Assembly (NCBI GenBank): GCA_016201275.1
Contig: JACQDB010000131.1
Span: 1 to 47,102, forward strand
Origin: Acidobacteriota bacterium
GTDB lineage: Bacteria; Acidobacteriota; Blastocatellia; UBA7656
Reading direction: 5' to 3'
Length of the DNA: 47,102 nt
How positions within the stretch are numbered: position 1 is the stretch's first letter; each line of letters starts with the position of its first letter. The position numbers were made by a program, and so were the translations under genes. Of the stretch, positions 17,040 through 34,865 are shown in pieces. A model generated the notes under the pieces. That model searched no databases and was not told the DNA's origin. It worked only from the letters and a program-made list of their open reading frames with translations.

Positions 17040-18611
17040 ATGGCGCAAAAAATCCGCAGAGTTTTGATCGTTGGAGGCGGATCAGCAGGCTGGATGACGG
17101 CTGCTTATCTCACCAAAGCTTTGGAAGCAAATGTTGAAGTGATGCTCATTGAATCTCCCAATATCTCAACCATAGGAGTTGGCGAGGCAACTTTCAGCAC
17201 CATCAAGGTATTCTTCGATTTTCTCGGACTGGACGAACGTGACTGGATGCCGAAATGCAATGCAACTTACAAATTATGCGTGAAGTTTGTGAACTGGAAC
17301 GCCGAACGACAAGCCTTTCACCACCCTTTTCAGAGGTACGAAGTCGTAGATGGCTTCAATGTCGCCGAATGGTGGCTGAAATTGAAAAGAAAGAAAGAAG
17401 CATTCGACTATTCCTGTTTCCATACGCCGGCTTTATGCGACGCCAAGCGTTCGCCCAAATATATGGATGGGCAGGTCTATGAGGAAAAGGTTCAGGAATA
17501 TTTTTTGCCTCAACACGCTTACCGAAAAAATGTGCTGGCAGATTTAAAAATTCAATATCCTTATGCCTATCACTTTAACGCAAGTCTGCTGGCTAATTAT
17601 TTGCGAGAGTATGCTGTCCCCAGAGGCGTCAAGCACATTTTGGATGATGTCCTAAACATCAAACTTGCAGAGGATGGCAGCATCTCTCATATCACCACCA
17701 AAGACCATGGCGACCTAGCCAGCGACCTGTTTATAGACTGTACAGGATTTCGAGGAATGTTAATCAACAAGACGCTCGGCGAGCCATTTGTCTCGTTCGG
17801 CGATTCCTTGCTCTGCGACCGTGCCGTAGCCATGCAGATACCCAAAGATATTGCCAAAGACGGCATCAACCCGTACACGACAGCCACTGCGCTCAGTGCT
17901 GGTTGGGTCTGGAATATTCCGCTTTACGGTCGCGATGGCACAGGCTATGTTTATTCCAGTTCTTTCCTTTCGCAAGAGGAAGCTGAAAAAGAATTTCGCC
18001 AGCATCTGGGCACTGTCTCTGATGACCGCCAGCCTCTGCATATCAAAATGCGAATCGGACGCAACCGCAACTCTTGGGTCAAAAACTGCGTGGCAATCGG
18101 TCTGTCAAGCGGCTTTGTCGAACCTTTGGAATCAACGGGCATTTTCTTCATACAGCACGGCATTGAAGAATTGATTCACTACTTCCCGAACAAAAAATTC
18201 GATGAAGAAACGATTAAAAGCTACAACAAATCTATAGCCGATTGCATAGATGGCATACGCGATTTTCTGGTTCTTCATTATCACGCCAGCAATCGTCTGG
18301 ATACGCCTTTCTGGAAAGCCACCAAAGAAGACATCTTGGTGCCGGAGGCTTTGACAGAACGGATGAAATTATGGAGTACGAGACTGCCAAGTAATCGCAC
18401 AATCAATCCGCAATATCATGGGTTCGAGTTGTTTTCCTACATCACCATGTTGCTGGGACTGGGCTATCAGCCTTCGAACAGTCTGCCGATACTCAATCAT
18501 TTACAGGATCGCAACGCCAGGGCGGCTTTCCGCAGACTCAAGCAAAAGACCGTTCATTTATGTAAGACTTTGCCCTCTCAATATGAGTATTTGTCCACTA
18601 TGTATGCCTGA
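17040..18611 (+). CDS. Flavin-dependent halogenase (tryptophan halogenase family)
   Basis: The 523-residue length is typical for the family (PF04820). FADH2-dependent halogenases make hypohalous acid at the flavin and pass it through a tunnel to a catalytic Lys beside the substrate. Visible landmarks are the N-terminal dinucleotide fold GGGSAGW (residues 10-16), the catalytic Lys78 in a context like PrnA Lys79, the WxWxIP signature at 289-294 (WVWNIP) and Glu364-Ser365 in PLESTG, matching PrnA Glu346-Ser347. All expected catalytic residues are therefore present. AAAGG lies about 9 bp before the ATG. The substrate could be free Trp or an aromatic unit on a carrier protein; the sequence does not decide. 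No flavin reductase gene is nearby. Its place between NRPS/PKS genes and the DAHP synthase downstream fit a halogenated aromatic in the product. Confidence 0.95.
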   Translation: MAQKIRRVLIVGGGSAGWMTAAYLTKALEANVEVMLIESPNISTIGVGEATFSTIKVFFDFLGLDERDWMPKCNATYKLCVKFVNWNAERQAFHHPFQRYEVVDGFNVAEWWLKLKRKKEAFDYSCFHTPALCDAKRSPKYMDGQVYEEKVQEYFLPQHAYRKNVLADLKIQYPYAYHFNASLLANYLREYAVPRGVKHILDDVLNIKLAEDGSISHITTKDHGDLASDLFIDCTGFRGMLINKTLGEPFVSFGDSLLCDRAVAMQIPKDIAKDGINPYTTATALSAGWVWNIPLYGRDGTGYVYSSSFLSQEEAEKEFRQHLGTVSDDRQPLHIKMRIGRNRNSWVKNCVAIGLSSGFVEPLESTGIFFIQHGIEELIHYFPNKKFDEETIKSYNKSIADCIDGIRDFLVLHYHASNRLDTPFWKATKEDILVPEALTERMKLWSTRLPSNRTINPQYHGFELFSYITMLLGLGYQPSNSLPILNHLQDRNARAAFRRLKQKTVHLCKTLPSQYEYLSTMYA

Positions 18612-18733
18612 AACCAGGAATCGGTTGCTGACTGCGGGGCTACGCAAATCGGCAAAACGGCACAGGCATCAAGACCTTGGTTTTAACTCGAAAACCGCAA
18701 CCAACAGATGTTTTAACTCCTCAAGAGGATGAC

Positions 18734-21700
18734 ATGGCAGTCTATACAACCCCTGCAATTCTGTCGCTAAAAGATGAGCGGCAACTCTTATTAAACATTC
18801 TTCGCAATGTGAAGGATGAGAATTTCTCCGGCCTCTCCGCCGAACAACATAGGCTGTGGTTATTACGTCAGCTTGATGCGGCGGTTCCGACGCACGTTTC
18901 CCTGGCAGTGCAGGTCAACGGGTTGCTGCACTTGGACCTGTTGGCACAGAGCGCCAACGAGGTTATCAAGCGGCATGAAATCTTGCGCTCGACCTTTGTA
19001 GACCTCGGCAAACGTCCAGCAAGAATCGTCGCGCCATCGGCAACCGTAAAACTGAACATTATCAATGCCGAGGAGTGGTCAGAAGAAGAAAGCCGACAAC
19101 AACTGTGCAGGGTTGCAGACCGCCAATCGCGAGAACTTTTTGATTTGCGCTCTGCGCCGCTTATGCGCCTCACGGTGATTGTTCACAGCGACAAACGGCA
19201 CACGCTCCTTTTGGTTATGCATGAGCTGGTCGCTGACGCGCTTTCCTTACAAATTTTTATCGAAGAGCTTTTGCAAATCTATGAAGCGCGATTGACCGCA
19301 CCACTCTCTTGGCTGCCCTTGTTGCCGGACGACTTCGGCACCCTCATACAGCGTGAGAATGAGTGGCTCAAGTCCACCGCCTGTGACCAACAATCGCGCT
19401 ATTGGCAGCAGACTCTCGCTGAAGTTCCGCCTTTACAACTGCCCACGGATTTTGCCAGACCGGCAATAAAAACTCACAACGGCGCGATTGAATCTTGTCA
19501 TCTGAAGGCTTCGACAGTCACAGCGTTGGAACAGATCGCTACCAACCGGAACACAACTTTGGAGGCGCTTTTTCTTGCTGCCTTCAATACGCTGTTATTC
19601 TGGCACTCAGGACAGCAAGATTTGGCTGTAGGGATGGAGGGCGAACGGTCCAGAAAACAGGGACTCGGTCCTTTGACCAATACTCTGGTCATTCGCACAA
19701 ACTTAGGCGCGGCGCAGACATTTTTGGATGTGATTGATCTTGTTTATCAGCAGGTAGAGGCTGCACAATTGCGCCAGCACATACCGTTTGCCAAACTGGT
19801 AACCGACCTGCAACCGGAACGCGATTTGAGCCGCACCCCTTTGTTTCAAGCGAAATTCGTCGCCGGTAAGCAGCCGTTTCAAGACATCAAACTACAAACC
19901 CTCGAACTGCGGGAACTGGATTTGCCCAAAGGCGACGGTCGCTTTGACCTCACGCTCTCTGTGATACTGGCAGACATCACGCGACTAACTTTCCACTACA
20001 ACAGCGATTTATTCCAGCCCGAAACCGTTCGCCGGATGCTCGGACATCTGCAATTGATCCTTGATAAGGTCGCCGAAGAGGCTTCGCAGCCGCTTGCCAA
20101 TTTGCTGATTCTGCCGGAAGCCGAGTGTCACCAGCTTGCCCTTGTATGGAATCAGACCGAACAGCCTTTTGCTTACGACCAGTGCATCCATCAACTCTTT
20201 GAAGCGCAGGTAGCACGCACCCCGAACGCAATTGCTATCGCTTGCGGCGAACAACAACTGACCTACAGAGAATTGAGCAGGCAATCCGACCGTCTGGCAA
20301 ATCGCCTGAAACGCTGCGGCATCAGACCGGAAGCGCGAATCGGTATCTGTCTGAGCCGTTCGCCGGAAACCGTGGTTGCTATTTTAGCTGTACTCAAAGC
20401 AGGCGCGGTCTATATTCCGCTTGACCCTGAATTTCCTCCTGAACGACTCGCTTTCATCTTGCGCGATGGCAAGGCACAAATGGTCTTAGCACGACGCGAA
20501 AGGAGCAACAATCTTCCAAACTCTGTAGCTGAAGTTCTGTTTCTTGATGATGAGACAGACGAGCAATGGGAGGCAGACAATGCAACTCCTGAGCAAATTA
20601 CTTCCGATAATTTGGCCTACATCATCTACACCTCCGGTTCAACAGGTCAACCCAAGGGCGTGGCGGTGACTCATCAAAGCGTGGTCAATAACCTGACCTG
20701 GCGTCAGGCTATGTGGCCGCTTTTTTCGACAGACCGAGTACTGCAAAATTACTCTTTCACTTTCGACCCGTCCGTGTGGACAACCTTTTGGCCTTTGCTA
20801 AACGGAGCCTGTGTCATTTTGCCGCGCTCGGAGAAATATTTTGATTCAAGGGCGCTGGCTCGTTTTCTGCTGGAAGAGGGCGTTACGGTCTATGGGGCAG
20901 CGCCAAGTCTGCACGCCGTACTTATGGATGAAAGTTCAACGCTTTCAGGCGCAGCGTTGCGATATGTCTTTAGCGGCGGCGAGAGTCTGGAGGCGGATTT
21001 ACAGGAGCGTCTACACAAAACGCTCAATGCACAAGTCTATAACGTCTATGGGCCTACGGAAGCGACGATAGATTGTACCTACTGGTTTAGCTCGCGAGAC
21101 GAAGCGGCAAAACGCGCGCCCATCGGCAGACCTATAGCAAACACGCAAATCTATCTATTGAATAAAAATTTTGATCTTTGCCCGACCGGTGCGCCTGGAG
21201 AAATTTTCATAGCGGGGCTGGGGTTGGCGCGTGGCTATGTAGAGAATCCCTGTTTGACAGCGGAAAAATTTCTCCCCAATCCATTCAGCCTCAAGCCCGG
21301 CGCGCGTATGTATCGCACGGGAGACCTTGGCAAACAAAATTCTGAAGGCGTACTTGAATTTGTCGGGCGCGCGGATGAGCAGGTTAAACTACGTGGTTTC
21401 CGCATAGAGTTGGGTGAAATCGAAGGCGCTTTGCTGCTTCACCCTGCGGTTCGAGAAGCCGCTGTAAGCGTGACTCCTACACAGAGCGGCGAGCCGAGTC
21501 TTACCGCTTATATGAGTTTTGAGGCTTCCGAGAGTGCGCCTTCGCCCGATGAACTGAAAGCTTTTCTCAAACAACGACTGCCCGTTTATATGTTGCCAGA
21601 CCTGTTCATAGGGCTAGCCGCTTTGCCCAGAACCGCGAACGGAAAAATTGACCGGCGGGCACTGCCGCAACCTGTCGAGACGCCAGCCGATTCGGCGAGT

Positions 21701-23188
21701 GCAGTGGTTGCGCCACGCACGCCGCTTGAAGCCGAGATTGCCCACATCGTTGGTCTTGTGCTGGGACTCGATCACGTCTGTGTGGAGACCGACTTGTTTA
21801 CTCTCGGATGCAATTCCCTGCTGATGGCGAGAATCGCTTCGCGGCTGTCGAATACCTATCAAATGAATATGCCTGTACCGCAAATTTTCAAAGACCCGAC
21901 CATTGCCGGGCTGGCAAAATTCATTGAACAATATTTACGCACAGGTCAGCGAGGCGTCGTTCCTCCCTGGACTTTCGAACAACTGGAAGCAGAAGCCGCT
22001 CTTGATCCAGCGCTCACTGCCGAAGGCTTGCCGCACGCCGACTACTGTTCGCCGAATAACTTCTTTTTGACCGGCGTCACCGGCTATCTGGGGGTCTTTC
22101 TGTTGGAGCAACTTCTTCTGGAAACCAACGCGGATGCCTACTGTCTGGTGCGCGCCAATGATGTGGCTGATGGGCACCGGCGCATTCAGGAAACCATGGC
22201 GCATTATCACATCTGGAACGAAGCTTTCCGTCAGCGCATCCATCCAGTGGTTGGTGATCTGGCAAAGCCGCTTTTCGGTTTGTCGGCGCTAGAGTTTGCC
22301 GAACTTGCCGAAACCGTAGATGTCATCTATCACTGCGGCGCACTGGTCAACTTTGTTTACCCGTATTCCGCTTTGAAGCCTGCCAATGTTCAGGGTACGC
22401 AAGAAGTGATTCGTCTTGCCTGTAGCGAAAAGCTTAAAGCCATCCACTACACTTCAACGGTTGATGTATTGTTGGCAACGCATACCCAGAGACCTTTTCT
22501 GGAAAACGATGAGCCGATTATCAACCCTGCGGAAATTCCCGATGGTTATGCGCGCAGTAAATGGGTAAGCGAGCGGTTGCTGCTGAAGGCGCGTTCCAGA
22601 GGCGTACCGGTTTGCGTTTACAGACCGGGACTGGTTATGGGGCATACCCGAACCGGAGCCACACAGACGAACGATTATTTGCTGGTCGGGCTAAAAGGGT
22701 ACATAGATTTGGGGGTTCTGCCGGAGCCGCAAATCATGATTGATTTTGTCAGCGTGGATTACGTCGCCAAAGTTATGGCGTATTTGTCCAGACAGCCTGC
22801 TTCATTCGGCAAGTATTTCCATATATGGAACCCTGAGCCAGTGCACATGAGCAAGTCTTACGAATGGATTCAATCTTTCGGCTACGGCTTGAAAGTCGTT
22901 CCCAGAAATGTGCTTCTCGAAAGCATCAGCAAAGTGGATGCTTCCAATGCCATGTACCCATTCATTGCCGGATTTCAGATGCAGGAAGATGACCCGCCTC
23001 CGGCTGGCGGCGCACTGTCGCATAGTCCGTCAACCATTGCTGCAATTGATACCTACAGCGAATGCCTCAATACCTTTCAAGGCGTTGCAGGATCAGGCAT
23101 TGAATGTCCGCCGTTGAGCGAGGAGATGGCGCATCTGTGCTTTTCCTATCTGGCAAGCATAGGCTTTTTGCCTCAGCCGACGAATTGA
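18734..23188 (+). CDS. Nonribosomal peptide synthetase, C(variant)-A-PCP-thioester reductase
   Basis: The protein has 1484 residues. The ATG at 18734 is preceded by AGAGGA at good spacing; an upstream TTG at 18677 lacks one. The C domain has a damaged active site: HHxxxDG reads HELVADA (residues 163-169), with Glu164 in place of the catalytic second His. The A domain is canonical (YTSGSTGQPKG near 632, YGPTEAT, YRTGDLG, NGKIDRRALP), with by-eye code D-P-W-A-F-G-V-I-D that I do not recognise. The PCP Ser1028 lies in an unusual LGCNSL. The C-terminal ~400 residues are an NAD(P)H thioester reductase of the SDR type: TGVTGYLG near 1112 and YARSK near 1272. This domain reductively frees the chain as aldehyde or alcohol, making this the likely terminal module although two further biosynthetic genes follow. 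Confidence 0.95.
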   Translation: MAVYTTPAILSLKDERQLLLNILRNVKDENFSGLSAEQHRLWLLRQLDAAVPTHVSLAVQVNGLLHLDLLAQSANEVIKRHEILRSTFVDLGKRPARIVAPSATVKLNIINAEEWSEEESRQQLCRVADRQSRELFDLRSAPLMRLTVIVHSDKRHTLLLVMHELVADALSLQIFIEELLQIYEARLTAPLSWLPLLPDDFGTLIQRENEWLKSTACDQQSRYWQQTLAEVPPLQLPTDFARPAIKTHNGAIESCHLKASTVTALEQIATNRNTTLEALFLAAFNTLLFWHSGQQDLAVGMEGERSRKQGLGPLTNTLVIRTNLGAAQTFLDVIDLVYQQVEAAQLRQHIPFAKLVTDLQPERDLSRTPLFQAKFVAGKQPFQDIKLQTLELRELDLPKGDGRFDLTLSVILADITRLTFHYNSDLFQPETVRRMLGHLQLILDKVAEEASQPLANLLILPEAECHQLALVWNQTEQPFAYDQCIHQLFEAQVARTPNAIAIACGEQQLTYRELSRQSDRLANRLKRCGIRPEARIGICLSRSPETVVAILAVLKAGAVYIPLDPEFPPERLAFILRDGKAQMVLARRERSNNLPNSVAEVLFLDDETDEQWEADNATPEQITSDNLAYIIYTSGSTGQPKGVAVTHQSVVNNLTWRQAMWPLFSTDRVLQNYSFTFDPSVWTTFWPLLNGACVILPRSEKYFDSRALARFLLEEGVTVYGAAPSLHAVLMDESSTLSGAALRYVFSGGESLEADLQERLHKTLNAQVYNVYGPTEATIDCTYWFSSRDEAAKRAPIGRPIANTQIYLLNKNFDLCPTGAPGEIFIAGLGLARGYVENPCLTAEKFLPNPFSLKPGARMYRTGDLGKQNSEGVLEFVGRADEQVKLRGFRIELGEIEGALLLHPAVREAAVSVTPTQSGEPSLTAYMSFEASESAPSPDELKAFLKQRLPVYMLPDLFIGLAALPRTANGKIDRRALPQPVETPADSASAVVAPRTPLEAEIAHIVGLVLGLDHVCVETDLFTLGCNSLLMARIASRLSNTYQMNMPVPQIFKDPTIAGLAKFIEQYLRTGQRGVVPPWTFEQLEAEAALDPALTAEGLPHADYCSPNNFFLTGVTGYLGVFLLEQLLLETNADAYCLVRANDVADGHRRIQETMAHYHIWNEAFRQRIHPVVGDLAKPLFGLSALEFAELAETVDVIYHCGALVNFVYPYSALKPANVQGTQEVIRLACSEKLKAIHYTSTVDVLLATHTQRPFLENDEPIINPAEIPDGYARSKWVSERLLLKARSRGVPVCVYRPGLVMGHTRTGATQTNDYLLVGLKGYIDLGVLPEPQIMIDFVSVDYVAKVMAYLSRQPASFGKYFHIWNPEPVHMSKSYEWIQSFGYGLKVVPRNVLLESISKVDASNAMYPFIAGFQMQEDDPPPAGGALSHSPSTIAAIDTYSECLNTFQGVAGSGIECPPLSEEMAHLCFSYLASIGFLPQPTN

Positions 23189-23196
23189 TTTTGATT

Positions 23197-25848
23197 ATGC
23201 AGCCCCTTATCGCAAAAAATGATTTGCAGGATAATCGCTTAGGCGATTTCGCTAACGCCAAAGCGCCATCGGCGTTGCCTGAGCATTTGATTCAACTGTT
23301 CGGCGAGTGGCGTGTGTGGCGCTGTGTGGTCTTGCGCGGAGCCGGTTTTGCCGCCTCGCAGGTGCTCAAACTGGCGGCTCCCGAATGCGCCAGAGCTGCC
23401 GATAATCTCATCAAAGCTCAGGAAGAGCGCGAAGATAGTTGTCAACAGCTTTTGCAGAATCTGAGAGTCGAACTCGACACTGTAAGGCTTCAACAACCGG
23501 CAGACGAAACCGCCAGACGCGCCCTTTTAAACAAAGCTTTACGGGATGTGAAAAGAGGCAAGCTGCCCAAGCTTTCTGGTTTTTCAGCCAACACGCAGGA
23601 CGCTTTGAGCCGTTTGTGCAAGGCAGATTTACTGCTTGAGCCAGCACGTAAAACCTTCCGCCAACGATTTGCGGAAGGATCGGCAAACACCTTGAAAGAA
23701 TTGGTCGCGACCGCCGCTTCAGAGCCTTTCCGCGAGGCTGTGCTGTGGCAAAATCGCCGCGCTGTGCATAGTGGTCTGGATGCTTTGTTGAGAGAAGCGG
23801 CAGACAAGCAGCAGCGCGGTAGCAAACAACGCCAGCACGAAGAGTTAGTCGCCAGCTATCTGCAACGCTATACGGTCAAGAATGATACCATAGGCTTTTT
23901 TGGACCTGTGGGGTGGGCACGTTTTGTTGACGATGAGGAGTTGATTGTCTGTCGTCCGGGCAGTCGTTTTGTGCAAAAGCGCGAGGTCTATTTTGAAGGT
24001 TGGGCGATTGACAAAGTTGCGGAAACGCTGGCTCAAAATGAAGCCTTGCGCCCTTGGGCGGTGCCGCGCTTAATGCCGTTTCTGCATCTTGACGGCGTCA
24101 GGCTTTATATTCCTTTGCAAAAGCCTTTGCCCATCACGGCGCAGCAATCTGCGGTTTTGCAAGCTTGTGATGGTGAGCAAACGGCAGAGCAACTGGCTGA
24201 CCGCCTATTGCAAAACCATGCACTCGGCTTCAGGAGACGCGAAGAAATTTATCATCTGCTGGAAGCGCTCAATGGCAAAGGGCTGATTGCCTGGACTATC
24301 GAAGTGCCGTTGGTCTTGCGTCCCGACCAACGGCTGCGCCGTATCATTGAAGGCATCACAGACCACAAGCTTCGCCAGCCAATCCTCGAAATTCTTGACG
24401 AATTGGAAGCGGGTCGTGCCGCCGTCGCCGGTGCGGCTGGCGATTGCGAAAGCCTCAATCGTGCCCTCGGAAATCTCGATGAAATCTTCACCAGGGTGAC
24501 TGGCTCAGCCCCTTTAAAACCCGGCGGAGAAGGAAAAACTTACTCGTCGCGGACGCTGGTTTACGAAGATTGTCGCAGAGATATAGAGGTGGAAATCGGC
24601 ACAGAGTTTTTGCGCGCTCTCGGTGAACCGCTGTCTCTGTTACTGACGAGCGCACGCTGGCTGACCTACGAACTAGCCGCTCGAATGAGGAAAATTTTCA
24701 AACAGCTTTATGAAAATCTGGCGCACAAGAGCGGCTCGGCAACCATCGAAGCGGTCAATTTCTGGTATAACCTGGTGCCGATTTTGTTTGAAGGCAAACA
24801 ATCTCCGGTTGATCCACTGGTGCCGATTTTGCAGCAGCGCTGGGCAGATATTCTAGAACTTCCCCAAGCCGATTGCCGTCGTTTGCATTACCACTCTGAA
24901 GAACTGCGTGAGCGCGTTGCGGCAGCCTTTGCCGCCCCGGCTCCGGGCTGGGCTTCGGCTCGTTACCACAGCCCTGACGTGATGATTGCAGCGGCGGATT
25001 TGGCAGCGCTTGAGCGCGGCGATTACCAGTTGGTGTTGGGCGAGATACACTTGGGCATCAATACCGCGGCAGCGAATTTATTTGTGGCACAGCACTCGTC
25101 GCCAGAAGATTTTCAAAAATTTTATGCAGCCGATTTCCCTGAGCCGCGAGTCATCGCCATCGTGCCGAAATCCTGGCCGCAAGCCACCACCAGAACCCAG
25201 ACCCTGATCGCCAATCCGCAGGATTATTTGTTGATGGTGACGCAGGATTCTCTGGGCGCACCCAAGTCTCAGGCGCTCAACATCGGTTCACTGGTCATCG
25301 AGCCAGAGGGCGATGGTTTAGTGATTCGGACACGGGATGGGCGGCTGAATTTCGATCTCATTGAAGCTTTCGGAGATGTTCTCTCGATGTTGGTGGTCAA
25401 CTCCTTCAAACTTCTGCGCCCCCAAAGCCACACCCCGCGCATCACCTTTGACCGCTTAGTAGTGAGCCGCGAAAGTTGGAACTTCACCCCCGAAGATGCC
25501 TATTTTGCCTGGGAGAAAACCGACCTAGAGCGCTTTATAGAAGCCCGACGCTGGCGGCTGGAAAAAGCCATGCCGAGATTTATTTTCTATAAATCTCCCA
25601 TCGAAGCCAAACCTTCTTACGTTGATTTTGACAGCCCCATCGGTTTAGAGATGTTTGCCCGTTCGATCCGGCGTCTGGCTGACAAGGGCGCTTCCAATTC
25701 GACAATTTCGGCTTCAGAGATGCTACCTGGGGCGGAGCAAAACTGGTTGCGCGACCACAAGGGCACGACCTTTACCAGTGAACTTCGCATTATCGCAGTT
25801 GACCCGGCGAGGAAATTCCCAAGTTCAGAAAAGTGCGCCATTGTGTGA
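23197..25848 (+). CDS. LanB-like (lantibiotic dehydratase N-terminal family) protein
   Basis: The protein has about 883 residues. I place the start at the ATG at 23197, 8 bp after the NRPS stop; an in-frame ATG at 23104 would overlap the NRPS by 85 bp and adds residues with no family match. Family signatures of the LanB glutamylation domain (PF04738-like) are visible: a WxxWRxVxLRGAGF-like N-terminus, FREAVLWQNRRAV near residue 178, and RYTVKNDTIGFFGPVGW near 225. Known LanB proteins use glutamyl-tRNA to modify Ser/Thr of precursor peptides, and small LanB relatives (PEARLs) attach amino acids from aminoacyl-tRNA to a peptide C-terminus. I see no clear C-terminal elimination domain. No precursor peptide, cyclase or peptidase gene is nearby; it sits between two NRPS genes. 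Acting on the NRPS/PKS product is an inference. Confidence 0.8.
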   Translation: MQPLIAKNDLQDNRLGDFANAKAPSALPEHLIQLFGEWRVWRCVVLRGAGFAASQVLKLAAPECARAADNLIKAQEEREDSCQQLLQNLRVELDTVRLQQPADETARRALLNKALRDVKRGKLPKLSGFSANTQDALSRLCKADLLLEPARKTFRQRFAEGSANTLKELVATAASEPFREAVLWQNRRAVHSGLDALLREAADKQQRGSKQRQHEELVASYLQRYTVKNDTIGFFGPVGWARFVDDEELIVCRPGSRFVQKREVYFEGWAIDKVAETLAQNEALRPWAVPRLMPFLHLDGVRLYIPLQKPLPITAQQSAVLQACDGEQTAEQLADRLLQNHALGFRRREEIYHLLEALNGKGLIAWTIEVPLVLRPDQRLRRIIEGITDHKLRQPILEILDELEAGRAAVAGAAGDCESLNRALGNLDEIFTRVTGSAPLKPGGEGKTYSSRTLVYEDCRRDIEVEIGTEFLRALGEPLSLLLTSARWLTYELAARMRKIFKQLYENLAHKSGSATIEAVNFWYNLVPILFEGKQSPVDPLVPILQQRWADILELPQADCRRLHYHSEELRERVAAAFAAPAPGWASARYHSPDVMIAAADLAALERGDYQLVLGEIHLGINTAAANLFVAQHSSPEDFQKFYAADFPEPRVIAIVPKSWPQATTRTQTLIANPQDYLLMVTQDSLGAPKSQALNIGSLVIEPEGDGLVIRTRDGRLNFDLIEAFGDVLSMLVVNSFKLLRPQSHTPRITFDRLVVSRESWNFTPEDAYFAWEKTDLERFIEARRWRLEKAMPRFIFYKSPIEAKPSYVDFDSPIGLEMFARSIRRLADKGASNSTISASEMLPGAEQNWLRDHKGTTFTSELRIIAVDPARKFPSSEKCAIV

Positions 25849-25937: not shown

Positions 25938-25991
25938 GCCTGCATACCAGCGTTTTTTCGTCTGTCAAAATAAAGGAGAGTGCAAGTAGTT

Positions 25992-28900
25992 TTGGAATTC
26001 TTATCGAAAGAGAAGCGGCAGTTACTGGCTCAAACTCTAAATCAAGCGCGGCCTGTGCGCCATTCCTCTGTTGGGCGACGCGAGTCGTTGGCTCCTGCGC
26101 CGCTTTCTTTTGCTCAGCAGCGGCTGTGGTTTCTTCACCACCTCGATCCCAGCAAAGGGCACTGTAACACTCCGGTTGCGATCAAACTGACGGGCGCTTT
26201 GGAAGTTGAGGTTTTCAGGCGAACGCTGTTGGAGGTGGTCAGGCGTCAGGAAAGTTTTCGGACGACCTTTCCATTGCAAAACGGCGAGCCTGTGCAGGTC
26301 ATCTCAACGCAAGCCACTATGGATTTTCAGGTGCGGGATTTATCTGACTTGGCGGCTGCCGAGCGTGAGCCTGCTGCCAAGGCAATTTTGCACGAAGAGT
26401 CGCTCAAGCCCTTTGATATTGCCAAAGAGTTCTGTGTGCGTTTTCGACTTCTGCGGCTTGAGGAAAACCTGCACTGGCTGGTGCTGGTTGCTCATCATAT
26501 GGTGTTTGACACTTGGTCAATGGGAGTTTTCAGTCGCGAGATGTCGGCGATTTATGGAGCCTTGCGCGAAGGGCGGCGTGCCACCTTGCCCGAACTGGAA
26601 ATTCAATATGCTGATTTCGCCTGTTGGGAGAAACAGGCTGAAGAGGAAGGCAGACTGGCAAGACAACTGGCTTATTGGAAAACCAAGTTGCAAGGCGCTC
26701 CGGAAATGCTGCCGTTGCCACTTGACCGACCCAGAAAACCCTTTCAAGGAAGTCGCGGGAAAAGCGAACCGTTTCTTTTCGGCGAGTCGGTGTCGAATGC
26801 TGTTCAGGCGCTGGGCCAACAGGAACGCTCCAGTATCTTCATGATCCTGCTTGCCGCTTTTGCGATTCTGCTACATCGCTATGGCGGCGGTTCTGACCTC
26901 GTCATTAGCTCGGCGGTCGGTAATCGCAAACTGTCTGGCACTGACGGACTCATCGGCTGTTTTATGAACACCCTGCTGTTTAGAGTGCAACTGGCGGGCG
27001 ATCAGAGCTTCCGTGACTTGCTACAGCAAATCCGCGAGGACGGTTTGGCAGCTCACGAACACAGCGATGTGCCTTTTGAACAGGTTGTTGCGGCGCTCAA
27101 TCCCAAACGCAACCCCAACTATAGCCCTTACTCTCAGGTCATGCTGATCAACCAGAATGCCGAATTGCCGGTTTTCAACGGTTCCGGCATCACTATCGAG
27201 CGCCTGCCGACCGCTGACCGTTTCGTTTCTCAACAGGATTTGACCATTCATGTGCGTGTCCTCAAGGGTCGTCTGCAAGGACTGGTGGAATATAATTCAG
27301 ACATCTTTGACCAATCAACGATTCAACGCTTGCTGAACCATTTTGAGCAACTGCTCACTTTCGCAGTAAGCCATCTCGACCTGCCCATTTCGCAATTGAA
27401 TGTGCTGACGCCGCTTGAGCTTGAGCAGGTAAAGAGCCAGTCCTGTAAAGCCGGGAAACCGCCTCTGCATACAGGCTTTTTGCATAAAGAATTTGAACAA
27501 CAGGCAGAGCGTACCCCGGACAGCATTGCTGTCACCTGTGAAGGCAAGCAACTCACTTACACAGAACTGAACCATCGCGCCAATCAACTGGCACAGCATC
27601 TGCAAAAACTCGGAGCGAAACCTGAGCAGCGCGTGGCAATATGCCTTCGGCGTTCCCCTGAACTGGTGACGGCTCTGCTTGGCACACTCAAATCCGGTGC
27701 GGTTGGTGTGGTGCTAGATACGGATCTGCCGCGCCCGCGTCTGCGAGCGATTTTCAGAGAGACCGCGCCGATTGCTGTGATAACGGAAAGTCAGTTGGTT
27801 GAAACTCTCGACTTGCACAATCAACTCACTTTTTGTATGGACTCGGATTGGTCAGCGCTTGAGGCTGGCGGCACACAGAATCTGAACCTGGCACTTGCGG
27901 GGGACAATCTTTCGTTTATTTTGTACACCGCCGGAACCACAGGCAATCCCAAGCCTGTGATGTTGCCGCACAAGGCCACGGCGGAAGCCGTATATTGGCT
28001 GGCAGCAGCCCTTGGTTTGCACAAAACCAACGCCCAGGAGGTCTTTGCAACCCACGAATCAGGGTACGCCGCCCTTGCCTTATTTGCGCCACTGACCACC
28101 GGAGGCAACCTGGCAATCTTCTCAAATGAAACTTCAAGTGATGGTCACCTTTTACTCCACAGCGCCAAGCAGGCAGGGGTGACAACTATGTTTGCTGCGC
28201 CCTTGAGTTGGCGCAAATTGCTCGACAGCGGTGAAGCCATCCCGGAGGGTCTGAAAGTCCTTTGCGGCGGCGAGCCACTGACACAAGAACTTGCCACAGA
28301 CTTACTTGCCCAAGGCGCTCAGGTGTGGAATCTTTATGGCGCTGTCGAATCCCTGTTCTGGCCTATGATGAAACCCATCACTGCGGGCGAGAAGGTGAGG
28401 ATTGGCTCTGCCATTGCGAATACCTGCGCTTTTGGGCTTGACCCATACGCGCAACTTGCGCCAATCGGTGTGCCTTGCGAACTTTTCATAGGCGGCAACC
28501 ATCTGGCGAGGGGCTATCTGAACAGGCCGGAACTTACTGCCGAGCGTTTCTTGCCGAACCCCTTGGCAGACGAACCCGGTGCGCGTCTCTACAAAACCGG
28601 CGATAGGGTTCGCTACTTAGCCGAGCGCCAGTTAGATTTCCTACATCGCGCTGACCAACAGGTTTTGTTTCAGGGTGTGCCGGTTAGACTTGGAGAAATC
28701 GAAGCGGCGCTGTGTCATCATTCTGCCGTTAGTCAGGCCGTTGTCACAGTGCGCGCGACGGCTCAGGGCAACAAAGTTCTAGTCGCTTACGTAGTGCCAC
28801 GCCGCAATCTCGTTGACGCGAGCGCTATGGCAAAGCTATCGCCTCAGGATTTGGAAGAGTTTCTCAAAATGCAATTGCCTGACTACCTGGTGCCTGCGGC

Positions 28901-29333
28901 TTTCCTGATAGTGCAGGACTTGCCGCAAACTGCCAATGGCAAGGTGAACCGCAGGGCGCTGCCTGAGCCTGAAATCGTTGCCGCCGCGCCCTCAAGACCG
29001 GCTTTTCGTGCGCCTACAACGGCGACCGAAATCGCCATTGCAGACATTTGGGCGACAGTGCTTCAACTTGAGCGTATCAGTATAGATGATGATTTCTTTG
29101 CGCTTGGCGGCGATTCTTTGAAAGCGCAGAGAGCGCTTGCGCGTATAGAGCGCGAGTTGGGATTTGCGGTTCCGATTCGCGTCGCTTTTGCAAATCCCAC
29201 GGTAGCTTTGCTGGCTGGTCATATAGACCACACCAGAAGTCTTGTAATGACCGAAGAGGACGAACTCGAAAATATCGTGGAAGGACTCTCGGACGAAGAG
29301 GTTCACGCCCTGCTCAATAGTGCGCTGCAATAG
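25992..29333 (+). CDS. Nonribosomal peptide synthetase, C-A(divergent)-PCP
   Basis: About 1113 residues. A strong AAAGGAG at 25972-25978 lies 1 bp before an in-frame GTG (25980) and 13 bp before a TTG (25992); the TTG spacing is more workable, but the start is uncertain. The C domain keeps both His but reads HHMVFDT (168-174), with Thr for the final Gly. The A domain is unusual: A3 is YTAGTTGNPKP, YGPTE is YGAVE, the region holding the substrate-binding Asp reads HESGYAALAL and has no Asp, and the A8 loop reads QVLFQG where QVKxRG is expected. YKTGDR and NGKVNRRALP remain. The PCP (LGGDSL, Ser1042) looks functional. The A domain may use a non-amino-acid substrate or be inactive, with the PCP loaded in trans. 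The E1 gene follows 29 bp later. Confidence 0.93.
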   Translation: MEFLSKEKRQLLAQTLNQARPVRHSSVGRRESLAPAPLSFAQQRLWFLHHLDPSKGHCNTPVAIKLTGALEVEVFRRTLLEVVRRQESFRTTFPLQNGEPVQVISTQATMDFQVRDLSDLAAAEREPAAKAILHEESLKPFDIAKEFCVRFRLLRLEENLHWLVLVAHHMVFDTWSMGVFSREMSAIYGALREGRRATLPELEIQYADFACWEKQAEEEGRLARQLAYWKTKLQGAPEMLPLPLDRPRKPFQGSRGKSEPFLFGESVSNAVQALGQQERSSIFMILLAAFAILLHRYGGGSDLVISSAVGNRKLSGTDGLIGCFMNTLLFRVQLAGDQSFRDLLQQIREDGLAAHEHSDVPFEQVVAALNPKRNPNYSPYSQVMLINQNAELPVFNGSGITIERLPTADRFVSQQDLTIHVRVLKGRLQGLVEYNSDIFDQSTIQRLLNHFEQLLTFAVSHLDLPISQLNVLTPLELEQVKSQSCKAGKPPLHTGFLHKEFEQQAERTPDSIAVTCEGKQLTYTELNHRANQLAQHLQKLGAKPEQRVAICLRRSPELVTALLGTLKSGAVGVVLDTDLPRPRLRAIFRETAPIAVITESQLVETLDLHNQLTFCMDSDWSALEAGGTQNLNLALAGDNLSFILYTAGTTGNPKPVMLPHKATAEAVYWLAAALGLHKTNAQEVFATHESGYAALALFAPLTTGGNLAIFSNETSSDGHLLLHSAKQAGVTTMFAAPLSWRKLLDSGEAIPEGLKVLCGGEPLTQELATDLLAQGAQVWNLYGAVESLFWPMMKPITAGEKVRIGSAIANTCAFGLDPYAQLAPIGVPCELFIGGNHLARGYLNRPELTAERFLPNPLADEPGARLYKTGDRVRYLAERQLDFLHRADQQVLFQGVPVRLGEIEAALCHHSAVSQAVVTVRATAQGNKVLVAYVVPRRNLVDASAMAKLSPQDLEEFLKMQLPDYLVPAAFLIVQDLPQTANGKVNRRALPEPEIVAAAPSRPAFRAPTTATEIAIADIWATVLQLERISIDDDFFALGGDSLKAQRALARIERELGFAVPIRVAFANPTVALLAGHIDHTRSLVMTEEDELENIVEGLSDEEVHALLNSALQ

Positions 29334-29362: not shown

Positions 29363-31363
29363 ATGGTGCAAAATCAGCTACTGATGACCCCTGTAAAAAG
29401 AGTGGTCGAGCGCGAAACTCCTTTTGTGGAGAGCGTGGAGCGGCAAGACTGGGGCAGCGCTTTTCTGATTCGCGCCTTTGAGCAAAAGCTGCTTCGTCTG
29501 TTTTCCGAAGGCCAGTTGTTTGGCACAGTTCATACCTGCATAGGGCAGGAATTGACCGGCGTAGCCATCGCTCGTTGCCTTCAACCCGAGGATGTGATTT
29601 TCAGCAATCACCGATGCCATGGACATTACCTGGCTCGCACCGGAGATGTCGAGGGCTTGCTGGCTGAAATTATGGGACGCCAGAGCGGGATTTGCGGCGG
29701 TCGCGGCGGCAGCCAGCATCTATGCGCTCAAGGCTTCTTCAGCAACGGCATTCAGGGCGGTATTGTGCCGGTGGCGAGCGGCTTGGCGATGGCGCAAAAA
29801 CTGCGTCAAGAAGACGGCATTGCCGTGGTCTTCATCGGTGACGGTACGCTCGGCGAAGGCGCTGTCTATGAAGCCTTCAACATCGCTGCAAAGTGGCAAT
29901 TGCCGCTGGCAATTGTGCTTGAAAATAATCTCTATGCACAGAGTACGAGTCAGAGCCAGACCCTGGCAGGTGACATTGGTTTGCGCGCTGAAGCCTTCGG
30001 CATTCGCGCCTTTCAAGCTGACACCTGGGCTACGGAAAGTTTGTTTCAAACCGCTGGCAAAGCTCTAGGGTATGTTCGTCAGACCTCGCAACCGGCATTT
30101 CTGTCCATTGATACCTATCGCCTGATGGCGCATTCCAAAGGCGATGACGAGCGCAATCCCGAAGAAGTGCAACGCTACTGGTCGCTCGATCCGCTGACGC
30201 GCTTTGCCAGGGAATTCTCTGAAGAAGCAAATGATTTCCAGAAAGCCGCCGAACAGCAAATTTCTGAAGCCCTGGCACGCGCCAAAGCCGCCCCCTTTGC
30301 AACTGTCGAAGTATCGGCCTCGGTCTGCGACCTTGAAACCCTCTGGCAACCTACGAAAATCGCTGTCCGTGACCGCCTGGCCAACCGCATCTACTCGGCT
30401 CTGGGCGACAATATGGAGCGCGACGAGCGCATCATTTGCATAGGCGAGGATATAGAGGCTCCTTACGGCGGCGCCTTCAAAGTCACCAAAGATTTGAGCC
30501 AGCGTTTTCCGGGACGCGTACGCAACACACCGATTAGCGAAAGCGCCATTGTCGGTCTGGCGAATGGGCTGGCAATGGCAGGTTACAGACCTGTCGTCGA
30601 AATTATGTTCGGCGATTTCCTGACTCTGGCTGCCGACCAAATCATCAATCATGCAGCCAAGTTCCGTTATATGTACAACGAACAGGTATCTATTCCGGTT
30701 ATCATACGCACGCCTATGGGCGGCAAGCGCGGCTACGGGCCGACGCATAGCCAGTGTCTGGAAAAACATTTCTTCGGCATCCCCGACACGCGTGTTCTGG
30801 CTTTGCATCATCGTTACGATCCGGCGCGAATTTATGACCGCTTGTTTGCTACCCTTGATTGTCCTGCCTTGGTGATTGAGAACAAAATTCTCTATGGCGA
30901 ATTTATTTCGGAAGATGCGCCTGAAGGTTTTGTTTGGGAAAACACGGACGGCGATTTTCCCACTTCGCGCCTGCGTCCGCACGCCACACCAGACGTTACG
31001 ATTGTTTGTTACGGCGGTATGCTCCTTGATGTCGAGCGGGCTGTTGACCGGCTCTTCGAAGATCATGAAATCGTTGCCGAAGTCATCTGTCCTGTTGAGT
31101 TGTATCCTTTACGCATCGCGCCGATTCTGGCATCGGTAGAATCGTCTCGCCGTCTGGTCGTCGTCGAAGAAGGGCAACTGTTTTCCGGGTTTGGCGCCGA
31201 ATTGTTGGCGGCGATTCACGAACGCGCCCCTGGGTTGCTAACGATGGCAAAGCGCCTTGGCCCGCCGCCGTCTCCTAACCCGGCAGCCAAGCCTGCCGAA
31301 CTGAAGATGCTGCCGACAACCGATTCTATAATCAGCAGTATTGTTGAGGTGATCTGTGGCTGA
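29363..31363 (+). CDS. 2-oxoacid dehydrogenase E1, fused alpha and beta subunits
   Basis: The 666 residues hold both halves of a thiamine-diphosphate-dependent E1, which decarboxylates a 2-oxoacid and passes the acyl group to a lipoyl domain. The alpha half has HRCHGHYLA, GGRGGSQHL and the ThDP motif GDGTLGEGA...NN (from about residue 160). The beta half begins near residue 333 (RDRLANRIYSAL) and carries GEDIEAPYGG and the typical FGDF and RTPMGG segments. Fused or separate, such E1s belong to pyruvate, acetoin or branched-chain complexes; sequence alone does not tell me the substrate. It begins 29 bp after an NRPS gene and overlaps the E2 gene by 8 bp, so it is tied to the biosynthetic operon rather than a housekeeping PDH locus. 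No E3 gene is present. Confidence 0.9.
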   Translation: MVQNQLLMTPVKRVVERETPFVESVERQDWGSAFLIRAFEQKLLRLFSEGQLFGTVHTCIGQELTGVAIARCLQPEDVIFSNHRCHGHYLARTGDVEGLLAEIMGRQSGICGGRGGSQHLCAQGFFSNGIQGGIVPVASGLAMAQKLRQEDGIAVVFIGDGTLGEGAVYEAFNIAAKWQLPLAIVLENNLYAQSTSQSQTLAGDIGLRAEAFGIRAFQADTWATESLFQTAGKALGYVRQTSQPAFLSIDTYRLMAHSKGDDERNPEEVQRYWSLDPLTRFAREFSEEANDFQKAAEQQISEALARAKAAPFATVEVSASVCDLETLWQPTKIAVRDRLANRIYSALGDNMERDERIICIGEDIEAPYGGAFKVTKDLSQRFPGRVRNTPISESAIVGLANGLAMAGYRPVVEIMFGDFLTLAADQIINHAAKFRYMYNEQVSIPVIIRTPMGGKRGYGPTHSQCLEKHFFGIPDTRVLALHHRYDPARIYDRLFATLDCPALVIENKILYGEFISEDAPEGFVWENTDGDFPTSRLRPHATPDVTIVCYGGMLLDVERAVDRLFEDHEIVAEVICPVELYPLRIAPILASVESSRRLVVVEEGQLFSGFGAELLAAIHERAPGLLTMAKRLGPPPSPNPAAKPAELKMLPTTDSIISSIVEVICG

Positions 31364-32606
31364 GCCGATAGCGATTCGGGTGCCGAAGGAAACCGTCAGT
31401 GACGAAACGGTTCTCGTCATCAACTGGCTGGTGCCAAACGGCGCATTTGTCACTCAGGATGAACCCTTAGTGGAAGTCGAAACCAGTAAAGCGTTGCTGG
31501 AAATTCAGGCAACATCGGCGGGCTATCTCTGGCAATGTTACAAAGCTGGTGATGAGGTAGCCGTCGGAGCGCCCATCTGTTTTATCACGGACAATGTGCA
31601 ATCACCTCTATTAAATGATTCCGAGTGCGACCATACGGTTGAGCCGGTCTCGGAGGTCGCGGCGTCCGCGCCTGCGCGCTTGACGCTACAAGCCAGGCAG
31701 ATGGCAAAAGAATTAGGCATAGACATCAACACTTTTCAAAACGGCAGCCTGATTCGTAGCCGTGACCTGCTGGTGAGATCGAGTCAGCCGACTCCAGACA
31801 AGCCCTGTCCTTCGGCAACGCAACCGGCTGCTCCCGCCGTTGCAGGCTTGGCTTTGCAATGGGAAAATCTGCCGAAGCGAAAAACGGCAGAAGCGCGACG
31901 GCTTGCCAACGGACAAACGGCAACGGTTTCAAGCTTTGTGACCATGCCTTGTTCGCTAGCCCAGCAGCGCGCAAATTTCGCCGCTCATAAGGCAGAGGTT
32001 TCATTCTCTGCGTTCCTCATTTTTGAGGTAGCGCGGCTGCTGCGTAAATATCCTGTATTCAACTCTGTGTACTGGCAAGGTAAGATAGGGCTATATGAAA
32101 AGGTGAACATCGGCTGGGCTTTGGATGATGGCGAAGGCTTGGTGGTCCCTGTAATTTTTGATGCTGATGACAAAACACTCGATGACATTCAAGCCGAAAT
32201 GGAACGCCACAGCGCGGCTTATGTGCGCCAGCGGCTATCGGCGAAAGACCTTGCAGGGGCTACGTTCACGATTTCTGATCTTTCCGGCAAAGGCGTTTCG
32301 ATGTTTATGCCGCTAATCAGCGAGGGGCAATCTTCAATATTGGGCATAGGCGTAGATTTGCTGACTCTGGCATTCGATCACCAGCTTGCCGAAGGACACA
32401 CAGCCGCACGGTTTCTTAAAGAGTTGAGCGCGCGCTTGAGCGAGTACAACCAGACAGCCAACGAGAATAAGAGACAACAATCCGAATTGTCCTGTGCCTA
32501 CTGCGGCTCAGGGGTTAGTGAATTGCAAGCCAACAAATCATTTCTGCTGGTTTGCCAGACGCCTGCCCGGGCCTACGTTTGCAGTCTTTGTTTAACCAAT
32601 TATTGA
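31356..32606 (+). CDS. 2-oxoacid dehydrogenase E2 (dihydrolipoamide acyltransferase) with Cys-rich tail
   Basis: The 416-residue frame starts at a GTG overlapping the E1 stop by 8 bp, with GAGGTGA just upstream. The N-terminal lipoyl domain carries the modifiable Lys45 in ETSKALLEI. A short peripheral-subunit-binding-like segment (ARQMAKELGID) follows, then the acyltransferase core, which moves the acyl group to CoA or another thiol. The catalytic DHRxxDG motif reads DHQLAEG: His342 stays, Asp is Glu. The last ~37 residues are foreign to normal E2s: CAYCG, then a lone Cys, then CSLC, resembling a zinc ribbon or knuckle. Together with E1 upstream and a lipoyl synthase gene 17 bp downstream this is a self-contained lipoyl-dependent acyl-transfer set. 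An acyl carrier protein or CoA could be the acceptor. Confidence 0.9.
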   Translation: MAEPIAIRVPKETVSDETVLVINWLVPNGAFVTQDEPLVEVETSKALLEIQATSAGYLWQCYKAGDEVAVGAPICFITDNVQSPLLNDSECDHTVEPVSEVAASAPARLTLQARQMAKELGIDINTFQNGSLIRSRDLLVRSSQPTPDKPCPSATQPAAPAVAGLALQWENLPKRKTAEARRLANGQTATVSSFVTMPCSLAQQRANFAAHKAEVSFSAFLIFEVARLLRKYPVFNSVYWQGKIGLYEKVNIGWALDDGEGLVVPVIFDADDKTLDDIQAEMERHSAAYVRQRLSAKDLAGATFTISDLSGKGVSMFMPLISEGQSSILGIGVDLLTLAFDHQLAEGHTAARFLKELSARLSEYNQTANENKRQQSELSCAYCGSGVSELQANKSFLLVCQTPARAYVCSLCLTNY

Positions 32607-32623
32607 CCCCTGGACATCAACAC

Positions 32624-33607
32624 ATGAATAAACTCAGGCAAAACTTGCCGAAGCCGAGTTGGTTGAAAGTGAAGTTGCAAATTGGCAGCGACTTTGAGCA
32701 GGTGCGACAGATGGTTGCTGACTTGCGTCTGCACACCATCTGTCAGGAAGCCCATTGCCCCAATATTTATGAGTGCTGGTCGAACCGCACAGCAACTTTT
32801 ATGATTCTCGGCGATGTCTGTACCCGTCGCTGCGGTTTTTGCGCGGTAACCAAAGGAACTCCTGTTGCCGTTGACCCTGATGAACCAAAGCATCTCGCGG
32901 AAGCTGTCCGCAAGCTCAACCTCCAACACGCAGTAATCACTTCAGTCAATCGCGATGAGCTTGCCGACGGCGGGGCTTTTCATTTCGCCGCGACGATTGA
33001 GGCGGTGCGGGCGCTCAATCCTGAGTGTCGAATCGAAGTGTTAATTCCGGATTTTTGTGGCAATCAAGCAGCCCTCAAGACCGTTTTGCAGGCTCGCCCG
33101 GACATCCTCAATCACAATACAGAGACGGTACGCCGTCTCTATCCTCGGGTGCGTCCCAATGGTCGTTATCAGTGGACTATGGATTTGATGGCTTTTGCGG
33201 CGCAACGGCGCGAACAGGAAAAAACAGGTATGCTAACCAAGTCAGGCGTTATGCTTGGTCTGGGTGAAAGCGATGAGGAAATCATCGAAATGATGGAGGA
33301 TTTACGGCACGTTTCCTGTGACATCCTGACGCTCGGTCAGTACCTGCAACCTGCACCGAATCGCTTACCCGTCGAAAAATATTATACACCAGACGAATTT
33401 GCCCGCTTTCGGCGCCTGGGGCTTGAGATGGGTTTTCGTTATGTTGAATCAGGTCCCTTTGTACGGTCGAGCTATCACGCGCACGCGCACCGCCCACAGA
33501 ACCCAGACGCGCTCTCAAGACCGACTACAGCAGTTGCTCCCGTCGGCGCCAGGCAATTGCGGGTGTTGAATTCGACGGTGCCCGAAAGGGTCCCCGTTTC
33601 GCCTTAA
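32624..33607 (+). CDS. lipA: Lipoyl synthase (radical SAM)
   Basis: A 327-residue protein from the ATG at 32624, 17 bp after the E2 stop; an earlier in-frame start at 32552 would overlap E2 and adds no family sequence. LipA inserts two sulfurs into octanoyl-lysine on lipoyl domains. Both iron-sulfur clusters are visible: the auxiliary cluster in CQEAHCPNIYEC and the radical SAM cluster in CTRRCGFC. SVNRDEL and the C-terminal GPFVRSSYHA Ser motif that ligates the auxiliary cluster are also present. A lipA gene is normally housekeeping; here it sits directly behind E2, so it probably serves this complex. No octanoyltransferase (LipB) is adjacent. Confidence 0.95.
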   Translation: MNKLRQNLPKPSWLKVKLQIGSDFEQVRQMVADLRLHTICQEAHCPNIYECWSNRTATFMILGDVCTRRCGFCAVTKGTPVAVDPDEPKHLAEAVRKLNLQHAVITSVNRDELADGGAFHFAATIEAVRALNPECRIEVLIPDFCGNQAALKTVLQARPDILNHNTETVRRLYPRVRPNGRYQWTMDLMAFAAQRREQEKTGMLTKSGVMLGLGESDEEIIEMMEDLRHVSCDILTLGQYLQPAPNRLPVEKYYTPDEFARFRRLGLEMGFRYVESGPFVRSSYHAHAHRPQNPDALSRPTTAVAPVGARQLRVLNSTVPERVPVSP

Positions 33608-33818: not shown

Positions 33819-34865
33819 ATGCTTATCGTCATGAAGGCTGATGCCACAGAAAGCGAAAGTCGGGGGGTCGTCAGGGTTATTCAAGATTTAGGGTACCGCG
33901 CTCATCCGATGCCCGGCGCTACACGCACCGCCATAGGCATCACTGGCAATCAAGTCGTGCTCGATACGACACACTTTGAGAATCTACCCGGCGTTGCTGA
34001 AGCCATTCGCGTCAGCAAACCTTACAAACTGATCTCTCTTGATATGCGTCCTGAGAAAACCATCGTTCAGGTCGGCAATGCCACCATAGGCGGAGATGAA
34101 CTGGCAATCATTGCAGGACCTTGTGCAATCGAGAGCCGCGAACAGGCGTTTGCCGTTGCCGAAGCCGTGGCAAGAAGCGGGGCGCGCTTGTTTCGCGGCG
34201 GCGCTTTCAAGCCGCGCACCTCGCCTTATGCGTTTCAAGGGCTTGGCGAAGAAGGCTTGAAGATTCTATCCGAGGTGCGGGAGATCTACGATTTGAACAT
34301 CGTCACTGAAGCCCTCGATGAATACGGCGTTGATTTAATCGAACGCTACGGCGACATGATACAGATAGGGGCGCGCAATATGCAGAATTTTTCATTGCTG
34401 CGGCGCGCGGGTCGTTCCCACTTGCCAGTATTATTGAAGCGTGGCTTGTCGGCAACCTTGGATGAATGGTTGCTGGCTGCCGAGTACATCATGATTGAAG
34501 GAAATTATCAGGTGGTTTTGTGCGAACGCGGGGTGCGAACCTTTGCCCAGCATACGCGCAACACTTTGGATCTGGCAGCCGTTCCTGCGGTGCGACAGGT
34601 TTCGCACCTGCCTGTCGTAATAGACCCTTCGCACGGGACCGGCAAAAATTATATGGTGACACCGCTGGCGCTGGCGGGCGTTGCCGTGGGTGCAGACGGT
34701 TTGATTATCGAAGTGCATAATCAACCGGAGCGCGCGCTGTCTGATGGCGCTCAATCGCTAACTCTGGAACAGTACAATCAATTGGTTTACGAGGTGAAAT
34801 CCATACACCGAGTCATTGCCCCTTTGAGCGATGTTTTCAGCCCTGCTTTGGCTTACCAAATTTGA
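33819..34865 (+). CDS. aroF: 3-deoxy-D-arabino-heptulosonate 7-phosphate (DAHP) synthase, type I beta
   Basis: A 348-residue enzyme that condenses phosphoenolpyruvate with erythrose 4-phosphate as the first step of the shikimate pathway. The N-terminal ~90 residues ([11 protein letters not shown]...) form the ferredoxin-like regulatory domain of the Thermotoga-type enzyme, followed by the barrel with [32 protein letters not shown] and IDPSHGTG, which carry PEP- and metal-binding residues. AGGAG lies 10 bp before the ATG. It follows lipA after a 211-bp gap and precedes the MbtH gene by 93 bp. A dedicated copy in a biosynthetic locus usually signals raised demand for aromatic precursors, which fits the halogenase and a possible aryl-2-oxoacid feeding E1. 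The regulatory domain may still allow feedback by aromatic amino acids. Confidence 0.93.

Follow-up and report, generated by a model that had tools for sequence, protein, structure and literature searches.

The DNA analysed here (the window) is an entire contig, C31, of 47,102 bases from the genome of an Acidobacteriota bacterium (6.84 Mb in 162 contigs, 98.7% complete), and the gene in question is an open frame of 883 amino acids (aa) at 23197-25848 (+) that encodes a LanB-like protein. It lies in a run of genes on one strand for nonribosomal peptide synthetases (NRPS) and polyketide synthases (PKS). With adenylation (A), thiolation (T), condensation (C) and reductase (R) domains abbreviated, the gene order is A(cut by the contig end)-T-C-A-T, KS-AT-KR-ACP, KS-AT-ACP-C-A-T, a halogenase-type gene, C-A-T-R, the LanB-like gene, C-A-T, E1, E2, lipoyl synthase, 3-deoxy-D-arabino-heptulosonate 7-phosphate (DAHP) synthase, MbtH and an ATP-binding cassette (ABC) ATPase. 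As described in an earlier note on this DNA, the LanB-like gene starts 8 bp after one NRPS gene (C-A-T-R, ending at 23188) and is followed by another (C-A-T, starting at 25980, 131 bp downstream). If translation began at the alternative in-frame ATG at 23104, the gene would overlap the NRPS gene before it; the exact start is immaterial, because the structural model becomes confident, and most homology matches begin, after about residue 20-25.

The signatures of a LanB glutamylation domain reported in the earlier note are present: the frame contains FREAVLWQNRRAV and KNDTIGFFGPVGW, and its product scores 128 bits with PF04738 (E 3.3e-37; cut-off 28), as the single PF04738 gene in the whole genome. 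An AlphaFold2 model built on a 43-sequence alignment reached a mean predicted local distance difference test score (pLDDT) of 90.6 and a predicted template modelling score (pTM) of 0.88. All 11 Foldseek matches at E <= 0.001 were LanB structures (TbtB at E 8.7e-27, GodF, MadB, MibB and NisB). With VIA-align, TbtB gave Z 21.6 across 711 residues at a root-mean-square deviation of 4.8, and NisB gave Z 18.9, the aligned part ending at residue 706-722; the fold of TbtB, GodF and the N-terminal part of NisB and MibB is shared across nearly all of the protein (Z 17-22). A PDB search with the single sequence found no LanB, which was recovered by profile searches alone. Residues 282-369 matched TruD, TbiB1, PqqD and the recognition element (RRE) of PbtF at Z ~7-8, and weak PqqD profile matches agree, while the best VIA row for this segment was the methyltransferase 8hkr (Z 11.4 over 87 residues). 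In this method Z under 8 may reflect a common arrangement, and rows at Z ~7-8 for the long helices at residues 61-174 were judged to be common helical arrangements. Because the RRE rows share that Z range, the RRE-like assignment rests also on the PqqD profile match.

The residues of the active site and of the tRNA-end site point to a peptide aminoacyl-tRNA ligase (PEARL). For the PEARL BhaBCTrp, residues for ATP/Mg and tRNA have been named and mutants reported, with Asp558, Glu575, Glu813 and Arg815 assigned to ATP and phosphorylation and Tyr205, Arg208 and Arg429 supported by mutation at the tRNA end. Placed by motif and spacing, not by alignment to a PEARL, and with neighbouring spacings that differ by 0-13 residues, ten BhaBCTrp residues map to R47, Y221, R224, R452, D594, E616, R758, F797, E862 and R864. 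D458 was rejected as the counterpart of Asp558, as it lies 404 residues before E862 where 255 are expected; D594 fits. Conservation was counted in 40 proteins, namely the window protein and those 39 of 103 candidate open reading frames (ORFs) judged full-length and uncut by contig ends. Nine of the ten positions are identical in all 40, including D594, E616, E862 and R864 for ATP and phosphorylation and R224 and R452 at the tRNA end, and Y221 is kept in 39. As controls we used eight dehydratase-type LanBs of the same phylum (all aligned, six in the tree, separate PF14028 partners confirmed for the four tested). In all eight, Leu stands at position 864 and A, G or S at 616, and the alignment has gaps at 594 and 452. 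Since the PEARL-distinguishing positions are kept in the window protein and changed in the controls, it looks like an ATP-using ligase rather than a dehydratase half, and its enzyme class, PEARL-type ligase, is well supported.

Neither a LanC-type nor a PF14028 elimination domain was found among the 21 window proteins scanned with Pfam (nine other ORFs of at least 150 aa, in alternative or opposite-strand frames, lay outside the scan), in agreement with the earlier statement that no elimination or cyclase domain is nearby. The whole genome gave no PF14028 match, and the control genomes of that search were likewise empty; Pfam recognises PF14028 in all four partner proteins tested, which come from loci of dehydratase-type LanBs in this phylum. 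The description of the protein as a PEARL-like LanB relative thus stands, with kept PEARL residues and no elimination partner, after one correction: its residue pair is the E-x-R of PEARLs and not the E-x-L of the eight controls. The structure prediction suggested in the earlier note likewise returned the LanB fold, with a match to NisB, and by spacing the tRNA-site and active-site residues are kept rather than lost.

Relatives were collected with one pattern, [DE]TIGFFGP, across a genome collection of 84,980 species. From 386 confirmed relatives the best 80 were kept and 77 distinct loci were read, with flanks of at most 10 kb and some short contigs, and NRPS/PKS context was scored by tblastn (E 1e-8) with the window's own A, C and KS domains as queries. 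The pairing of LanB-like and NRPS genes, for which the earlier note had proposed a survey, proved to be common: an A, C or KS domain was within reach in 64 of the 77 loci, with none found in 13 and no C domain found in 26. Within 3.2 kb such a domain was present in 51/77 relatives' loci as against 1/8 dehydratase-type control loci. Moreover, Salinispora and Saccharothrix carry C-A-T-LanB fusions, five of them full-length (L078, L079, L083, L084 and L087) and three checked with Pfam (L078, L083 and L087). Searched with the ligase, plasmids yielded 16 records, every one of them actinobacterial, and in two Streptomyces plasmid loci two LanB-like genes flank an A-domain gene, a pyridoxal phosphate (PLP) enzyme and an ACP.

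By computation, then, the protein has a LanB fold, is without an elimination partner, keeps the tRNA-end and ATP residues, and stands in an NRPS context both in the window and in most relatives' loci. Most likely it performs the ligase reaction, and its acceptor is a product or carrier-bound intermediate of the flanking modules, not a ribosomal peptide. The ligase would phosphorylate a free carboxylate using ATP, the amino group of an aminoacyl-tRNA would attack the activated carboxylate, and the tRNA would then be hydrolysed off, leaving the NRPS-PKS-made molecule lengthened by one amino acid. Such chemistry has a published precedent, SnaE, in which a ureido-forming C domain reverses the chain before the ligase acts. 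Taken together, with or without this reversal, we hold the ligase chemistry to be highly probable; that a single amino acid is added here without ureido reversal we regard as likely.

Several observations weigh against this interpretation, and it should be read with some caution. First, the carboxylate must arise elsewhere, because the adjacent R domain would release an aldehyde or alcohol; it might be supplied by a dicarboxylate at the N-terminus, by a two-carbon unit after oxidation, or by ureido reversal through a domain encoded past the end of the contig. Secondly, we infer the residue correspondence with BhaBCTrp from spacing and motif. Six of the ten residues, E862 included, are non-discriminating because they are kept in all eight dehydratase-type controls, Y221 and R452 vary in a more divergent 12-sequence alignment, and the base-contacting positions of the BhaBCTrp model (Arg197 and Gln201) are not conserved in register. 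Thirdly, the RRE-like domain is retained, as would be seen in a peptide-binding enzyme, and on the 13.9-kb piece that carries the closest relative (L050, 56%) no NRPS/PKS domain is seen.

The coordinates of the window features are collected in Table 1.

Table 1. Features of the window with the evidence for each.
Feature	Coordinates	Strand	Evidence
NRPS A(cut by contig end)-T-C-A-T; second A code VDWVISL-A	1..4902	+	Pfam, A codes
PKS KS-AT-KR-ACP	4933..9564	+	Pfam
Hybrid KS-AT(degenerate)-ACP-C-A-T	9720..15752	+	Pfam
Tryptophan-halogenase-type flavoprotein	17040..18611	+	PF04820 E 3e-144
NRPS C-A-T-R, RenF-like; C-domain motif MHELVADA, without second His	18677..23188	+	Pfam, RenF comparison
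PEARL-type LanB-like ligase (putative), 883 aa	23197..25848	+	PF04738, AlphaFold2 model, TbtB fold, PEARL residues
PqqD/RRE-like winged-helix domain within ligase, aa 282-369	24040..24303	+	PqqD profile E 0.003 and 0.011; VIA rows Z ~7-8
NRPS C-A-T, degenerate A domain, C motif HHMVFDT	25980..29333	+	Pfam; no reliable A code
Fused E1 alpha/beta, 2-oxoacid dehydrogenase type, RenH-like	29363..31363	+	Pfam, 47.8% to RenH
E2-type acyltransferase with lipoyl domain, RenI-like	31356..32606	+	Pfam, 27.7% to RenI
Lipoyl synthase, start uncertain	32552..33607	+	TIGR00510 363 bits
DAHP synthase	33819..34865	+	one of three over the cut-off in the genome
MbtH-like domain with C-terminal extension	34959..35558	+	PF03621 E 4e-19
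ABC transporter ATPase	35639..36382	+	PF00005

In the AT domain of the hybrid gene GIGVG replaces the GHSxG serine motif (GHSLG in the PKS gene upstream), and the Pfam AT match covers 115 of 319 positions. The second A domain of the first NRPS gene has a code without the usual Asp235, which we take to resemble the codes of beta-alanine A domains. The halogenase-type protein is 64% identical to a homologue at L063:18547-20244, in a Candidatus Angelobacter cluster that holds two LanB-like genes. The genome has three lipoyl synthases and three DAHP synthases over the cut-off; the window genes are therefore not the sole copies, two further of each lying elsewhere.

The surveyed loci offered further observations. 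A near-constant A code, DARS(A/V)SQMTK, stands beside the LanB-like gene or genes at L017, L018, L091, L093, L097, L101, L110, L112, L117, L121 (where it reads DARSLAHITK) and L126, and L017 and L018 show the cassette LanB, A, PLP enzyme, ACP, LanB. Two LanB-like genes per locus, mostly adjacent, occur at L022/L061, L053, L063, L064, L098, L100 and L125, and this pairing suggests that two amino acids may be added. At L070 (LanB-like relative from Rhodanobacter, 40%) no NRPS/PKS domain was found in 15.9 kb, and the neighbours read by eye as a PLP decarboxylase and fatty-acid-type enzymes. The myxobacterial loci L094 and L099 have three LanB-like genes each, with no NRPS/PKS domain detected within reach, and possibly represent a different use of the family. 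In the C-A-T-LanB fusions the A-domain codes are DLLWLGG.. and DALWLGG.., presumably for valine. Because of these codes, the idea that the ligase uses a side-chain carboxylate brought in by that A domain was dropped for the fusion loci.

The genes around the ligase resemble part of the renieramycin cluster. The C-A-T-R protein, a module of the RenF/SfmC type, is 40% identical over its length to RenF, a key enzyme of the renieramycin pathway (1491 aligned columns, 1157 bits, the next window protein reaching 596 bits). At six of nine positions the two A codes agree (DPWTLGLID and DPWAFGVID), and the canonical HHxxxDG is missing from the C domain of each. The window E1, besides its likeness to RenH, is 46-49% identical to E1s of the actinobacterial LanB loci L086 and L090; among the remaining E1s of the genome the best three reach 30-34%. 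With RenF-, RenH- and RenI-like genes in the window, the counterparts of RenC (46%), RenD (32-34%) and RenG (two genes) are grouped outside it on contig C30; Pfam assigns the RenC-like protein to the O-methyltransferases and one of the two RenG-like proteins to the P450s. They belong to a second NRPS-PKS cluster (C30:9085-41045, loci L047-L049) that also holds a further methyltransferase gene. One gene of this cluster is 47% identical to the NusG-like gene adjoining the closest LanB relative, L050, and one reads, by its motif, like an S-adenosylmethionine synthetase. In difference from renieramycin, none of the 12 proteins RenA-RenL matches the window LanB-like protein or the halogenase, and the PKS gene was matched over its carrier domain alone.

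In tetrahydroisoquinoline pathways, according to the literature, the terminal reductase module does Pictet-Spengler chemistry and a ketose-derived hydroxyethyl unit is used, and dnacin has a module with an inactive A domain. Candidates for making the modified tyrosine of such pathways would be the RenC- and RenD-like genes on contig C30, and a candidate for the ketose-derived two-carbon unit the RenH-like E1 of the window. From the sequence comparisons the window cluster looks like a relative of this type (renieramycin/saframycin). Some results speak against such a setting. Closer E1s (59-60%) occur at L153 and L154, in two other genomes of the phylum, with an E2-like gene near each and surroundings that by eye read like glycan genes, and this rules out the E1/E2 pair alone as proof of tetrahydroisoquinoline chemistry. 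Of the window genes RenE matched the hybrid KS gene best and so does not point to the second C-A-T gene, and Pfam showed no fatty-acyl loading domain in the window. A literature search, in which most subscription journals were not covered, found no such ligase in tetrahydroisoquinoline pathways. Tentatively, and with more doubt than belief, one might suppose that a PEARL acts in a tetrahydroisoquinoline-type pathway, with no ureido reversal, on the carboxylate of a carrier-bound intermediate, and that the actinobacterial C-A-T-LanB proteins are dedicated NRPS modules in which the next residue comes from aminoacyl-tRNA instead of from an A domain.

SnaE (threopeptin, Stackebrandtia nassauensis) is the one characterised precedent for a PEARL in an NRPS cluster that we found in the literature searched, and it rests on ureido chain reversal. 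By leaving the gene out, Yu and van der Donk 2024 (PMC11212132) showed that a bisarginyl ureido NRPS-PKS product does not acquire its Thr without SnaE; they proposed an ATP- and tRNA-dependent mechanism and attributed the free carboxylate to the ureido-forming C domain. By their count, ligase genes of this kind occur in about two thousand NRPS/PKS clusters, and they described such ligases also fused to thiolation or thioesterase domains. The earlier note held that it would be a novel type of hybrid chemistry if a tRNA-dependent step acted on a nonribosomal product; this idea was anticipated, as SnaE has been shown in an NRPS-PKS cluster. Compared by description, not by sequence, both clusters combine a LanB-like ligase with NRPS-PKS genes and MbtH, without a carrier peptide (in the window, none found near the gene). 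SnaE acts after a ureido-forming C domain, whereas the window shows none on the contig and has the RenF-like C-A-T-R, halogenase and E1/E2/lipoyl-synthase genes instead.

It is nevertheless conceivable, though in our view unlikely, that the window ligase follows the SnaE mode proper, with an EHHxxHDG C domain beyond the contig end reversing the chain and the ligase extending the exposed carboxylate. This would have the precedent on its side, the contig end does cut the first NRPS gene at its 5' end, and the motif does occur in the wider family, at L065 and L102. However, these are 2 of the 77 relatives' loci, or 2/51 of those with a C domain read, and 2 of the 124 C domains counted (motif readable in 110). 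The four visible C domains of the window read MHHIVSDG, IHHIVSDG, MHELVADA and AHHMVFDT, and because none of them has EHHxxHDG, the published rationale for SnaE is not seen in the window. The other C domains of the genome lie inside contig C30, in bases 1-60000 of which the motif was not seen. The missing 5' part of the first NRPS gene was not found: no contig end was seen to interrupt the start of an A domain, and the weaker A-domain matches fall in whole frames of 531-591 aa. Contig C30 was rejected as the missing upstream piece, since it starts with a short methyltransferase-like fragment and not with a piece of an NRPS gene.

A ribosomal carrier peptide encoded elsewhere could also be the substrate, as for TglB, AmmB and BhaB, with the resulting amino acid feeding the NRPS; we think this quite improbable. 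The PEARLs TglB, AmmB2 and BhaBCTrp, with which the window protein has in common the ATP and tRNA residues (by spacing), an RRE-like domain and no elimination domain, act on carrier peptides, and the retained RRE-like domain would fit such a substrate; according to the literature, though, the RRE may be unimportant for substrate binding in PEARLs. Near the window gene there are NRPS neighbours instead. An all-versus-all comparison of 1456 small ORFs of 25-150 aa from the window and 85 other loci, with ORFs overlapping long frames by at least 35% left out and the rest of the genome outside the search, found no conserved small peptide gene beside the LanB-like genes, and no window ORF matched another. 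The groups present in at least three loci were MbtH, MbtH antisense, ACP and two small groups of short ORFs. A conserved precursor of the ribosomally synthesised and post-translationally modified peptide type beside the LanB-like gene was rejected, as the search recovered MbtH and ACP but no such peptide; this supports the earlier note's statement that no precursor lies nearby.

Still less probable is a Glu-tRNA-dependent dehydratase half that acts on Ser or Thr held on a carrier. The fold, which is that of TbtB and NisB, and the six mapped residues in common with the controls are what this would predict, but the genome search gave no elimination domain, the Leu864 of the eight controls is Arg in the window protein (E-x-R for their E-x-L), and their KTSP is KNDT. 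A decayed or non-catalytic remnant is scarcely credible, with the frame open, the catalytic positions kept and the model confident.

In conclusion, we favor a PEARL-type ligase that would add one amino acid to the product or an intermediate of the NRPS-PKS assembly line. A PEARL in an NRPS cluster is already known; what sets this one apart is its combination with a RenF-like module and how seldom the ureido motif occurs among the relatives read. Within the stretch read, the ureido feature was seen neither in the window nor in 49/51 relatives' loci that bear a C domain (75/77 overall), and the source of these ligases' carboxylate therefore becomes a testable question. With a tRNA-dependent ligase next to a RenF-like module, a family of compounds that has antitumour agents among its members would gain a new step.

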